Source of the DNA: a virus | Virus record (IMG/VR): IMGVR_UViG_3300005253_000056 | Span: 1-39,961 of that record | Length of the DNA: 39,961 nucleotides | Strand: one strand, 5' to 3' | Shown: in pieces, positions 3,656 through 39,552 of the stretch | Layout of the letters: the number at the start of each line of letters is the position of its first letter | Numbering within the stretch: position 1 is the stretch's first letter | The notes under the pieces: generated by a model | What the model was told of the DNA's origin: nothing | Seen by the model: the letters and a program-made list of their open reading frames with translations, nothing else | Databases searched by the model: none | Made by a program: the position numbers and the translations under genes

Positions 3656-3941
3656 TCTACCGACAAGGGAAGAGGCACAGGAACGGTGCGATTGGTTTGA
3701 GGAGATCAGAGGTGATAGGTGTAATCAGAGCTGTAGTCACCATCTTGATCTTGGGCTACCTGAGGAACGACTGCTCTCTGCCCGTGCTGCCGGTGGGCTG
3801 TTGACTGAGGCTGAGTGGTGGGCGAAGCTACCTGACGGCGACATGTTCGTGAAGCGACGCATCGAGGACGACAGGTGCGAATATGGAATGGATGAGCATT
3901 TCGGGTTCTGTTGGGAGCTGGTGAAGGTGGAGAGAATATGA
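3648..3941 (+). CDS. TEAEW/LPDGD family small protein (97 aa)
   Basis: The core LLTEAEWWAKLPDGDMFVKR and the ending LVKVERI recur in other early proteins here: 36989-37300 has MTEAEWRAKLPDGDLYV and MKMERGNP, 33604-33882 has LPDGDLL and LVKVERGES, and 37297-37518 has MTEATWQVAFPDG. Several Cys and His residues (CNQSCSHH) precede the core. This is a small expanded gene family of this phage. Function unknown. Confidence 0.7.
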   Translation: MSDLPTREEAQERCDWFEEIRGDRCNQSCSHHLDLGLPEERLLSARAAGGLLTEAEWWAKLPDGDMFVKRRIEDDRCEYGMDEHFGFCWELVKVERI

Positions 3942-4039
3942 CGGCACCGAATGTGACACCGCGGCTGGTGTTGGTCACTGACCGCATCCCTCTGCGAATC
4001 AGGATGTATGTGTGGCTGGTTACGGGTGTGTGGTGCTAG
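3938..4039 (+). CDS. Tiny hypothetical protein (33 aa)
   Basis: ATG 3938 forms an ATGA overlap with the previous stop and AGAG lies upstream. The product is MTAPNVTPRLVLVTDR followed by a short hydrophobic end, MYVWLVTGVWC. It overlaps the start of the next gene by 28 nt. It may be only a coupling ORF for that gene. Confidence 0.4.
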   Translation: MTAPNVTPRLVLVTDRIPLRIRMYVWLVTGVWC

Positions 4040-4509
4040 ATCCTTGTGGCTCTCGTGGAGCGTATTTGAGGCATCACAAGAACAGCGAGAAACCATGCGA
4101 CGCGTGTCTGGTGGCGATGCGGCCGATATGGGCAGCCACAGATCTGAAACGGAGACGGCGTAGGGTCGAGTTGGAGACACCATGCGGCACCTATGTGGCG
4201 TACAGGCGACACCTACGCCGCGGTGAACCGATTGATGAGGCTTGTCGACTGGCTGTGAATAGGGCGCAGAGAGTGTGGTATCACGATCATCGGCGGCGTG
4301 TCCGACGCGGCACTCTGAAGGCTGTCGTAGCGGACTACCTGGAAACACACGGGCTGGTGGAGATGCGTGAACTGGTGGTGCTGATTCAGTATCGGCATCC
4401 TGACATCACGCACCGTCAGGTCAGGGACGCTGTGAAAGGACTACGCAACGACGGGATGGTGGTGTCGGAGGTGGACGAGTGGGGTGTCCGATACCAGTAC
4501 GTCGCCTGA
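4012..4509 (+). CDS. Actinophage CGTY/RRHLRRGE-type protein with C-terminal winged-helix-like region
   Basis: This 165-aa protein has two copies of a Cys/His unit: CGSRGAYLRHHKNSEKPCDAC (split near residue 12 onward) and CGTYVAYRRHLRRGEPIDEAC. This pattern is widespread in actinobacteriophage proteins and usually of unknown, probably nucleic-acid-binding, function. The C-terminal about 60 residues (VADYLETHGLVEMRELV, then THRQVRDAVKGLRNDGMVV) look like a winged helix. The start is GTG 4012, with AGGA eight bases upstream; GTG 4030 or 4033 is possible. It is the last gene of the rightward block and converges on the holin gene. Confidence 0.7.
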   Translation: MAGYGCVVLDPCGSRGAYLRHHKNSEKPCDACLVAMRPIWAATDLKRRRRRVELETPCGTYVAYRRHLRRGEPIDEACRLAVNRAQRVWYHDHRRRVRRGTLKAVVADYLETHGLVEMRELVVLIQYRHPDITHRQVRDAVKGLRNDGMVVSEVDEWGVRYQYVA

Positions 4510-16279: not shown

Positions 16280-16304
16280 TGTTCCTCCTCGGTGGGTAGT
16301 TTCG

Positions 16305-16376
16305 TGAAGGCAGTAGGAGTCGAACCTACGTCTACGGGGCAAACGCCCGCTACTTTTGCCTCTCAGCTATACCTTC
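16305..16376 (-). tRNA. Degenerate tRNA-like gene, possible tRNA-Lys(TTT)
   Basis: The 72 nt fold as a tRNA. There is a 7-bp acceptor stem (GAAGGTA with TGCCTTC, one G-U) and an exact 5-bp T arm (GTAGG/CCTAC around TTCGACT). The D arm is weak, with 3 bp including one G-U. The anticodon stem is 5 bp (GCGGG/CCCGT, one G-U) and the variable loop 4 nt. The anticodon loop reads CGTTTGC, placing TTT at 34-36 but G where the invariant U33 should be. CCA is not encoded. It may be a decayed or recombined tRNA, or one with a non-canonical anticodon arm. Confidence 0.65.
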
Positions 16377-37518: not shown

Positions 37519-37787
37519 GTGACATGGAAATTGCGTGCTGGTTCGATATGGGTAGGTCAACTTGTCTACTCCCTGACGACCATGACGGTCCGCACGAACC
37601 GACGCCCGACTCTGAGATCTTCGTGGAGCTGGTAGACAAACCCACGACCGAACCTGTATTGTTGCGTCCGGATGTGACACCCGTCGTATCGCCAACCATC
37701 CGCCTCCCCGGCATACTGGTCGGTGTGGTGCTATCAATCCCTTGGTGGATCGGGTTGTGGCATATCGTGCGGTGGATCTTCTCATGA
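37515..37787 (+). CDS. C-terminally anchored membrane protein (90 aa)
   Basis: The N-terminal part (CWFDMGRSTCLLPDDHDGPH) has Cys and His like its neighbour. The C-terminus is one transmembrane helix (GILVGVVLSIPWWIGLWHIV) ending RWIFS, similar to the 35-aa membrane protein at 1346. Its stop overlaps the methyltransferase start by 4 nt. Function unknown. Confidence 0.65.
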   Translation: MSDMEIACWFDMGRSTCLLPDDHDGPHEPTPDSEIFVELVDKPTTEPVLLRPDVTPVVSPTIRLPGILVGVVLSIPWWIGLWHIVRWIFS

Positions 37788-38434
37788 GAGTCGGGTCGTT
37801 GTTTGCCGGCGTAGGAGGCTTCGATATCGCTGTGGAACGTGCAGGTATGGAAGTAGTGTGGCAGTCAGAGAACGACGAACATGCGTCAAGAGTATTAGAT
37901 CACCACTGGCCTGATCTCAACGTAGGAGACATACATGACATACGTCTCGCTCGATACACGAAGGCAACACGACCGAGATACCTCACTGATCGAGACAAGG
38001 CTGACGCCGTCACGTTCTACAACGCTGGCGAATCAATCGGTTCGGTCGCATCTCGCTTCGCGGTCACCCGACAGGCGATGCACGACATCCTGAAGCGCCG
38101 AACCGAGATGCGACCGAACCTCCGCTATGGGGCAGACAACCACTTCCACAGAGGGACGAAAGCCTCGAAGTCCGCTCACCGCAAGGTCGATAACGCAATC
38201 AAGCGAGGGCGGCTGATACAGCCAAACCGCTGCGAGAACTGTCAAACCGTACCCAAGCCAATGAGCGACGGGCGGACACGGATACAAGCGCACCACGACG
38301 ACTATGACAAGCCGCTCAAGGTGCGATGGTTATGTCAGGAGTGTCACCATGGACAACACAAGCCACGAGGGGAAGGAGGTCAAAGGGAATCCATCGCACC
38401 AGCAGTCGACGTTCTGGTCGGAGGATTCCCGTGA
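37784..38434 (+). CDS. C5 DNA methyltransferase, N-terminal part with in-frame HTH-HNH nuclease insert
   Basis: ATG 37784, coupled by ATGA, begins MRVGSLFAGVGGFDIAVERA, whose FAGVGG is the AdoMet-binding motif I. At residue about 50 (NVGDI) the methyltransferase is broken by about 150 residues. These hold an HTH (GSVASRFAVTRQAMHDIL, then PNLRYGADNHFHRG) and an HNH domain (CENC, then IQAHHDDYDKPLKVRWLCQE, then CHHGQH). The methyltransferase resumes at VDVLVGGFP and stops at TGA 38434, exactly where the catalytic Pro-Cys-Gln should follow. There are no intein splice motifs. The product may act as an HNH nuclease. Confidence 0.85.
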   Translation: MRVGSLFAGVGGFDIAVERAGMEVVWQSENDEHASRVLDHHWPDLNVGDIHDIRLARYTKATRPRYLTDRDKADAVTFYNAGESIGSVASRFAVTRQAMHDILKRRTEMRPNLRYGADNHFHRGTKASKSAHRKVDNAIKRGRLIQPNRCENCQTVPKPMSDGRTRIQAHHDDYDKPLKVRWLCQECHHGQHKPRGEGGQRESIAPAVDVLVGGFP

Positions 38435-38897
38435 AGACCATGCCAAGACTACAGCGTGGCAGGAAACCGCTCGGGTCTGGCTGGAGACCGTGGCGCACTC
38501 TGGTGGCAGTTCCATCGCCTCATCGGTGAGGGACGCCCCACATGGGTTGTCGCAGAGAATGTCCCTGGGCTCCTCAGCAGCCGAGGCGGTGAAGACTTCG
38601 CAACGATCATCGACTCGCTCACCGAACATGGGTATGGCGTGGTCTGGGGGGTGCTTGATGCTCAGTGGTTCGGAGTGGCGCAACGACGCAGACGTGTCTT
38701 CATTGTCGCACATTCTGGAGGTGTCCCCCGACCCGAAGTACTTGCTCTCTCCGAGGGCGTGTTTGGGCATCCTGAACCGGGCCGAGACACGGGGCAAAGC
38801 GTTGCCGGCAGCCTTGAGACACGCCCTACACCAGATCGCTTACGGGCCGAAGAGGGACACATCGTATTCCGGCAGCAGCGAACCACCGACTATGTAG
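38349..38897 (+). CDS. Second-frame protein overlapping the methyltransferase (182 aa)
   Basis: AGGAG at 38337-38341 lies seven bases before ATG 38349. The frame is +1 to the methyltransferase and open through the 9-nt insertion that stops that frame. It contains KTTAWQETARVWLETVAHSG, then GSEWRNDADVSSLSHILE, then YLLSPRACLGILNRAETRG. I recall strings of the type YYLSPKACxGILRRAEKRGK from many phage proteins annotated as hypothetical. They are what the +1 frame of this methyltransferase family encodes. Whether the protein is made and what it does are unknown. Confidence 0.55.
   Translation: MDNTSHEGKEVKGNPSHQQSTFWSEDSREDHAKTTAWQETARVWLETVAHSGGSSIASSVRDAPHGLSQRMSLGSSAAEAVKTSQRSSTRSPNMGMAWSGGCLMLSGSEWRNDADVSSLSHILEVSPDPKYLLSPRACLGILNRAETRGKALPAALRHALHQIAYGPKRDTSYSGSSEPPTM
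38432..38440 (+). other. 9-nt insertion with in-frame TGA at the catalytic motif
   Basis: Removing TGAAGACCA restores GGA TTC CCG TGC CAA GAC, that is G-F-P-C-Q-D, the expected motif IV. The inserted nine bases resemble the following nine (TGCCAAGAC), so it may be an imperfect tandem duplication. It is in frame for both overlapping readings but is nonsense only in the methyltransferase frame. Confidence 0.8.
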
Positions 38898-39301
38898 AGG
38901 ATCAGATTGCTTCAACGGTGGCGGCGAGGGATTACAAGGATGCCACCGATCTCATCGCGTTTGCTCAGAATCAGCGTGGCGAGGTACGCGACCTCGGCGA
39001 TGTGGCTGGTGCGCTCGCTGCCGAACCTGGCATCAAGCAGCAAACCTACGTGGTACACGCCACGCAGACACCGATAGTCGCAGAAGACCGCGCCCATGCT
39101 CTCGGCGTTGAATCGCAGCAAGCCGTTGTCAACTCACAGGTGCGTAAGTTCACGCCCCTTGAGTGTCAGCGCCTTCAAGGATTCCCTGACGACTTCTATG
39201 ACGGCATTAACATGTCCGACACTCAGAAGTATCGGCAGATGGGCAACGCTGTCGCGGTCCCTGTCGTGGAATGGATCATGCGAAGGATCGCAGGATCATG
39301 A
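38435..39301 (+). pseudogene. C5 DNA methyltransferase, C-terminal part cut off by an in-frame TGA
   Basis: The frame resumes directly after TGA 38432-38434 with R-P-C-Q-D-Y-S, so the catalytic Cys is codon 38441-38443 on the far side of the stop. The ENV motif (WVVAENVPGLLSS), WFGVAQRRRRVFIVAHSGG, a target-recognition region and the closing KYRQMGNAVAVPVVEWIMRR follow, and all are intact. The first start codon is GTG 38456, which would give 281 aa without the catalytic Cys. The locus is either a recently inactivated methyltransferase or one needing TGA read-through. Apart from the stop it shows no decay. Confidence 0.8.
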
Positions 39302-39552
39302 GTGTGCGGTCTGAGTTGCGTGCCGAAGCTCTCATCCGAGCTGGTCACCGATGTGAGTGGCCGCAGTGTGACGAGACGAGGTGGCTAGAAATGTCGCACA
39401 TCATCCCGTTGGGTTCCGGCGGCAAGGACGAACTCTCCAACGTGTGGATACTCGATCGTCCACACCACGACCTGTATGACGGGCGGGCCCCGTTCAAACG
39501 GCGGGAGCTCCGTGTCCTAGTAGTCGAGTTGATGAGGTGGCGTCGTGAATGA
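39298..39552 (+). CDS. Stand-alone HNH endonuclease (84 aa)
   Basis: ATG 39298 overlaps the methyltransferase stop. The compact sequence has CEWPQCDETRWLEMSHIIPL, then GSGGKDELSNVWILD and HHDLYDGR, the C-x4-C, H, N and HH-x-x-x-D elements of HNH nucleases. It is a minimal domain. It may cut DNA as a restriction-like partner of the methyltransferase, act in packaging, or be selfish. Linkage to the methyltransferase is by ATGA coupling. A terminator-like hairpin follows. Confidence 0.82.
   Translation: MSVRSELRAEALIRAGHRCEWPQCDETRWLEMSHIIPLGSGGKDELSNVWILDRPHHDLYDGRAPFKRRELRVLVVELMRWRRE

Follow-up and report, generated by a model that had tools for sequence, protein, structure and literature searches.

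In the Aeromonas phage Aeh1, the conserved gene nrdA is split by mobE, and its two halves are made as separate chains. A 50-nt programmed translational bypass lies beside a homing endonuclease insertion at mobA/gene 60 of phage T4, where a stop codon adjoins the take-off codon, the take-off site carries a stem-loop and the anti-Shine-Dalgarno helps (PMC5009743; PMC3014915, which also mentions mobE). Knowledge of programmed bypass in phages rests essentially on this gene; reviews state that the existence of counterparts, possibly shorter ones, has been assumed for a long time and that no natural hopping over an in-frame stop is known (PMC5009743, PMC3014915). Many short nucleotide blocks are skipped by ribosomes in the mitochondria of Magnusiomyces capitatus (PMC5009743), and hidden HNH insertions have been described in the methylases of the actinophages ShiLan and Pacc40 (Arsenault et al. 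2025, PMC11855218).

We analysed a stretch of viral DNA of 39,961 nucleotides (IMG/VR record IMGVR_UViG_3300005253_000056, positions 1 to 39,961; hereafter the window), in which an earlier note had described an HTH-HNH nuclease inserted in frame into a C5 methyltransferase that resumes immediately before its catalytic motif. The in-frame nuclease was confirmed by a PF00145 match of the N-part and by a PHROG 2340 match of the insert of about 150 residues (E 2.8e-20). The frame starting at 37784 read MRVGSLFAGVGGF...GDIHDI, continued through the HTH and HNH sequence and returned to the methyltransferase with IAPAVDVLVGGFP, as had been claimed, but it ended directly after GGFP, at a TGA in 38432-38434. 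Alignment with uninterrupted methyltransferases, which the earlier note had proposed for defining the insert borders, yielded the borders of the nuclease and also a 9-nt insertion directly 5' of the catalytic Cys codon, CCG[TGA AGA CCA]TGC, that had been missed. This stop insert and the hairpin that precedes it, the central feature of the locus, were absent from the note. Past the TGA the same frame resumed with R-P-CQDYSVAGNR... and reached the methyltransferase end at 39301, with 286 open codons counted from the Cys. Both halves matched PF00145, and motif I, PCQ, ENV, QRRR and GNAV were all found, with PCQ being contiguous with GGF only when the insert is skipped. Judged from its reading frames, the gene is not one open fusion, and the predicted polypeptide composed of the methyltransferase N-part and the HNH domain ends at the inserted stop before the active-site Cys. 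The proposal that a free-standing homing nuclease had landed in, and been fused to, a conserved site thus held for the nuclease and its site and was half right for the fusion, given the inserted stop before the Cys; many relatives, moreover, encode the nuclease in a gene of its own 5' of the methyltransferase and nevertheless carry the stop insert. The features of the locus are listed in Table 1.

Table 1. Coordinates of the interrupted C5 methyltransferase (MTase) gene and its associated elements in the window.
Feature	Positions	Strand	Basis or remark
C5 MTase N-part, motif I to GDIHDI	37784..37942	+	PF00145 positions 1-55, E 3.8e-12; alignment to uninterrupted MTases
In-frame HTH-HNH endonuclease domain	37943..38392	+	PHROG 2340 E 2.8e-20; alignment with 18 relatives
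HTH part of endonuclease	about 37979-38113	+	PF04218/HTH_7-like
HNH part of endonuclease	about 38171-38374	+	PHROG 2340 endonuclease
Shine-Dalgarno-like AGGAGG	38374..38379	+	5 nt 5' of hairpin
Predicted RNA hairpin	38385..38430	+	arms 38385-38392 (GGGAATCC) and 38423-38430 (GGATTCCC); folds, covariation, model match
MTase segment IAPAVDVLVGGFP	38393..38431	+	ends in putative take-off codon CCG (38429-38431)
9-nt insert TGA AGA CCA	38432..38440	+	stop 38432-38434; putative landing codon CCA 38438-38440
MTase C-part, catalytic Cys codon (38441-38443) to its stop	38441..39301	+	PF00145 positions 70-322 (38441-39298), E 1.2e-51

The view of the earlier note that neither an intein nor a group I intron was likely was borne out. 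The borders of the nuclease domain (DI|RL and ES|IA) were without the usual Cys/Ser and His-Asn residues, the Pfam scan contained no Hint domain, and no Rfam match to an intron or other RNA family was found up to an E value of 5. Group I introns often carry HNH genes, and RNA splicing of an undetected intron might be imagined to remove both nuclease and insert. However, the nuclease lies upstream of the GGFP codons that the enzyme needs, so that no single splice would restore the gene, and the 6-nt insert persists in loci whose nuclease lies outside the methyltransferase, which, together with the Rfam result, renders splicing extremely improbable.

The same junction, GGFP|CQ with an insert of 6-15 nt, was found in about 75 non-redundant virus loci and in one bacterial metagenome-assembled genome (MAG). 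The search for the same nuclease elsewhere, which the earlier note had also suggested, was based on the nuclease only, neither a methyltransferase nor a stop being required, and retrieved one MAG contig from Desulfobacterales and more than 30 loci from IMG/VR where a methyltransferase is broken at GGFP|CQ and the HTH-HNH nuclease sits within it or just upstream. Among 31 non-redundant loci ascertained in this way, the insert measured 6 nt (17 loci), 7 nt (8), 9 nt (3), or else 8, 10 or 15 nt. It began with a stop codon in 29 of the 31, the two exceptions being L117 (GTAAGCCC) and L131 (CGATGACCT). When all virus contigs were scanned with the exact 6-nt stop-insert pattern GGNGGNTTCCCNTRANNNTGYCAR, 68 of the 69 matches corresponded to this methyltransferase site, as did eight of the nine matches to the 7-nt-insert pattern. 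In a survey of homologues of the methyltransferase C-half, in which the junction played no part in selection, the 73 classifiable loci comprised 65 that were uninterrupted and had no nuclease, seven interrupted with a nuclease and one interrupted without; a second methyltransferase family comprised 75 uninterrupted and five interrupted loci. The nuclease was present, the insert absent and the site changed in L133 (GGYPCQ) and L180 (GGFPCG). Since the same codons were hit in dozens of independent loci, the interruption is not due to chance.

A sequencing or assembly artefact was rejected, as dozens of contigs from differing samples share the junction, and so does a MAG that had been produced by another pipeline. 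An alternative code or a suppressor tRNA was rejected as well, because TGA also serves as the terminal stop codon of the methyltransferase and the record encodes no tRNA other than a tRNA-Lys(ttt) at 16304-16376 on the minus strand. Phage KT997847, which carries an annotated split methyltransferase, was dropped from the comparison because its GFPCQ is intact. No close isolate relatives were found among the best matches in 50,697 phage records.

The insert lengths also bear on readthrough of the stop codon, which would join the halves with two or three additional residues. Inserts of 6, 9 and 15 nt keep the frame, as this explanation demands; those of 7, 8 and 10 nt put the C-half out of frame, PCQ would not be contiguous, and the insert of L109 contains two stops, so readthrough is highly improbable. 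The gap between the methyltransferase halves occurred in any frame (6, 7, 8, 9, 10 and 15 nt) and would be left untranslated.

A strong, covarying hairpin was predicted just 5' of the stop in nearly all interrupted alleles (L140 and L198 are among the few in which it is weak or absent), whereas uninterrupted relatives were without it. The GGFP codons supply the 3' arm (GGN-TTC-C), which two unpaired nucleotides usually separate from the stop, and the 5' arm is mostly found 27-61 nt upstream of that stop. In the 60 nt before the stop, interrupted genes had a mean z of −4.61 and a dG of −25.7, with 65 of 74 below a z of −2, as compared with −0.03, −9.7 and 3 of 80 in uninterrupted methyltransferases; over 75 nt, folding per nucleotide was twice as strong in the interrupted genes. 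Downstream RNA structure did not differ between both groups. In 36/74 interrupted and 0/139 uninterrupted loci, the GGNTTCC of the gene had its exact complement upstream, with the pairings GGCTTCC/GGAAGCC (18 loci), GGGTTCC/GGAACCC (16), GGATTCC/GGAATCC (the window) and GGTTTCC/GGAAACC (1). At the third position of the second Gly codon, CG, GC, UA and AU pairs all occurred. For 28 hairpins aligned by sequence only, covariation scored 0.313, as against 0.184 +/- 0.012 in shuffles, none of 500 of which reached it. The hairpin of the window had a dG of −23.7 kcal/mol over 60 nt with a z of only −2.3. A covariance model matched the window at 38381-38434 with 47 bits (E 1.7e-10), the window being one of its 28 training sequences; this model scored uninterrupted methyltransferases with up to 30 bits because GGFP itself is part of it, so that the evidence for the hairpin consists of the fold statistics and the covariation and not of this score.

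The inverted repeat travels with the cassette, and it might be argued that it acts at the DNA level, as a binding or repair signal for the nuclease, and not as an RNA element. We consider this very unlikely: empty target alleles were without the repeat, G-U pairs accounted for many of the non-Watson-Crick cells of the hairpin alignment, and several loci without a recognisable HNH gene within about 900 nt upstream (e.g. L206, L245, L249 and L253) kept both the hairpin and the insert.

An upstream AGGAG or GGAGG was present in 45/74 interrupted versus 4/139 uninterrupted loci, typically 4-8 nt 5' of the hairpin; with the hairpin folded, this Shine-Dalgarno-like motif lies a median of 10 nt from the codon preceding TGC, the putative landing codon. 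Such a spacing resembles that of initiation, and Shine-Dalgarno spacing shortened by a hairpin is known in T4 genes 38 and 25, so that the C-half could be conceived as a second chain (re)initiated after the stop, yielding a two-chain methyltransferase. However, no ATG, GTG or TTG was found in frame between the insert start and the Cys in the loci examined. TGC is mostly preceded by CCA or CTA; of the codons seen there, only CTG (8/73) and ACG (2/73) could act as weak starts, and initiation would explain neither the hairpin nor a stop codon that adjoins the Pro codon. We regard a second chain as unlikely.

In most loci with enough DNA, the C-half was open from the Cys through motif X regardless of the insert length modulo 3, and the frame starting at the Cys stayed open even with inserts of 7 and 8 nt; in a few loci it stopped early, or motif X lay in another frame. 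For the first 90 codons of the C-half we used pN/pS rather than dN/dS, whose dS was saturated, and obtained medians of 0.250 for uninterrupted pairs (1033), 0.266 for mixed pairs (483) and 0.240 for interrupted pairs (118), values that come from non-independent pairs and in which part of the divergence may predate the insert, the interruption being polymorphic among relatives. Within an interrupted-only group (L206, L210, L211, L216, L217, L245 and others), pS was 0.24-0.39 and pN was 0.04-0.07. By these sequence measures, interrupted C-halves are under the same purifying selection as uninterrupted methyltransferases. This weighs against the explanation that the insertion just kills the enzyme, as a homing scar that protects its carrier while the C-halves have not yet decayed. 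The scattering of the interruption among uninterrupted relatives, the truncation of some C-halves and the decayed look of L127 would suit that explanation; yet, apart from the constraint on the interrupted genes, it accounts neither for the covarying hairpin and a stop fixed at the first codon nor for the retention of hairpin and insert in loci without a recognisable nuclease, and a dead methyltransferase is quite unlikely.

Several irregularities were noted in these and related genes. L127 (about 3900-4100) is a nuclease-bearing methyltransferase in which CQ is changed to CK and the frame is shifted, probably a decayed copy. A long +1-frame ORF (..YLLSPRACLGILNRAETRGKALP..) overlaps the methyltransferase of the window at 38304-38897; similar ORFs also overlap uninterrupted phage methyltransferases (L006, L419), and such overlaps may reduce synonymous change. 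The 3' end of the methyltransferase of the window is overlapped by a second small ORF of the HNH type (39271-39552), and an HNH gene is likewise located 3' of the methyltransferase in the Omegavirus mycobacteriophages L011, L012 and L014. The Omegavirus methyltransferases of L011, L012, L013 and L014 (Dove, NihilNomen, Porcelain and Dallas) are annotated as two genes broken at differing points of the C-half, for which frameshift, recoding or decay are possible causes.

The HNH relatives conserve C..C, HH(D/C)DY and WLCQ.CHH, consistent with an HNH catalytic domain with Zn-binding Cys pairs, and an HTH-HNH endonuclease was found inside or just upstream of most interrupted methyltransferases. 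In L193 the upstream protein, of the type-B family, has an HNH_3 domain (PF13392, E 6.2e-15) preceded by an HTH of the same style as that of the window (VTRQ...KRRG/KKRG). The closest pair of an interrupted and an uninterrupted locus, L252 and L339, was nearly identical from the insert into the C-half and differed in the methyltransferase N-halves; an HTH-HNH_3 gene overlaps the methyltransferase start in L252 and is missing from L339. Such a mosaic is the expected trace of double-strand-break repair at GGFP|CQ that copied the nuclease side. Presence or absence among close relatives and mosaic flanks were thus found for the type-B relatives; for the window, the comparison revealed no closely related empty allele. 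Recurrence, presence and absence among relatives, mosaic alleles and the conserved junction make it well supported, at the level of sequence comparison, that a homing-type nuclease is aimed at this conserved methyltransferase site.

Other nucleases were seen in neighbouring contexts. In the +1 frame, the interrupted methyltransferase of L240 contains an HTH and a further nuclease-like domain, in a stretch that starts about 625 nt 5' of the stop insert and reaches 450 nt 3' of it, resembling the hidden HNH of ShiLan. In L196 and L235, a partial copy of the methyltransferase start fused to another zinc-finger HNH lies 5' of a methyltransferase with insert and hairpin. Among cultured phages, Cylindrospermopsis phage Cr-LKS3 offers an example of a hidden HNH: a different DNA methylase (L429, 1423-3273) holds an HNH-like domain in a frame other than its own (DGYVAVRVGDDYQLEHRVVMEAHLG..). 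In Salmonella phage 40 (KR296694, 21675-21872), the annotated DNA polymerase III gene covers an HNH relative.

The insert, the compensatory hairpin, the recurrence, the selection on the C-half, the association with the nuclease and the mosaics that end at the insert are best explained by a mobile cassette in phage C5 methyltransferases that combines a homing endonuclease with a programmed translational bypass element, a reading to which we assign a probability of about 0.8. Its first part would be the HTH-HNH nuclease, read in frame with the methyltransferase N-part and presumably cutting intact alleles at GGFP|CQ. The second would be a short bypass element at the same site, made up of the Shine-Dalgarno-like motif, the hairpin, the CCG take-off codon, the immediate stop and the CCA landing codon; a stop directly after the putative take-off codon and a predicted stem-loop ending at that codon were both found. 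Most likely, the element makes ribosomes hop from CCG to CCA and go on at TGC. Peptidyl-tRNA-Pro would leave CCG, the ribosome would slide 9 nt while the hairpin re-forms behind it, and the tRNA would re-pair at CCA, so that translation resumes at TGC and gives GGFPCQD and a working methyltransferase. Ribosomes that terminate would release a truncated protein of methyltransferase N-part and HNH domain that could be the active nuclease, and the insert, by removing the target site of the nuclease, would shield its carrier from cleavage. The landing codon of the window encodes Pro, as does the last codon of every insert of at least 8 nt. In 67 of 73 loci the first two positions of the landing codon are pyrimidines, and such codons could be read by the Pro anticodon via G-U wobble; the remaining six are ACA, ACG or GCG, and these ends of some 6-7-nt inserts fit Pro codons poorly. 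No shared nascent-peptide signal was noticed, the N-parts before the site differing widely between loci. We consider it likely that such cassettes form a widespread, previously undescribed class of mobile bypass elements, with at least two HNH types, one HTH style and hops of 6-15 nt at the active-site codons of C5 methyltransferases, in which one gene would give a nuclease by termination and a methyltransferase by bypass.

If this is correct, more than 70 natural variants in gap length, landing codon and stem would make a comparative system of what has been an isolated curiosity, and they would show how a selfish nuclease can strike the active site of an enzyme and yet spare the enzyme. The annotation of many apparently broken phage methyltransferases would need correcting.

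A search of open-licence papers retrieved no report of bypass or of a stop insert in methyltransferases, and the described systems resemble the present one in part. The methylases of ShiLan and Pacc40 likewise have an HNH insertion in a phage DNA methylase, with no detectable intron or intein and a disjunct distribution; however, their HNH is not in frame, and the methylase frame gains no stop by the insertion, whereas that of the window is in frame, and neither a stop insert nor a hairpin nor bypass was described in that report. In Aeh1, too, a conserved phage gene harbours an HNH homing endonuclease (mobE), but, unlike nrdA with its separate chains, the second half of the methyltransferase has no start codon before the catalytic Cys. 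The blocks skipped in Magnusiomyces capitatus are similarly short and their landing codons are not always matched; that bypass is mitochondrial and apparently independent of the mRNA context, whereas the methyltransferase sites are marked by a hairpin and an immediate stop near a nuclease gene. The likeness to T4 mobA/gene 60 comprises a conserved phage gene invaded by an HNH homing endonuclease, a further, separate insert downstream that is non-coding, the stop directly after take-off, stem-loops at the take-off site and modest help from a Shine-Dalgarno-like motif. The target in T4 is a topoisomerase and not the active site of a C5 methyltransferase, the gap is 50 nt as compared with 6-15 nt, Gly codons are used instead of Pro codons whose landing partner is not always matched, and the stem at the methyltransferase loci, unlike that of gene 60, is located before the stop, with the take-off codon at its end. 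T4 gene 60 is, moreover, one locus and the methyltransferase element dozens of diverse loci, and we claim no common ancestry. As far as we have searched, a nuclease cassette combined with bypass is known in kind from T4, and its family, target, gap length and abundance in the methyltransferases are new.
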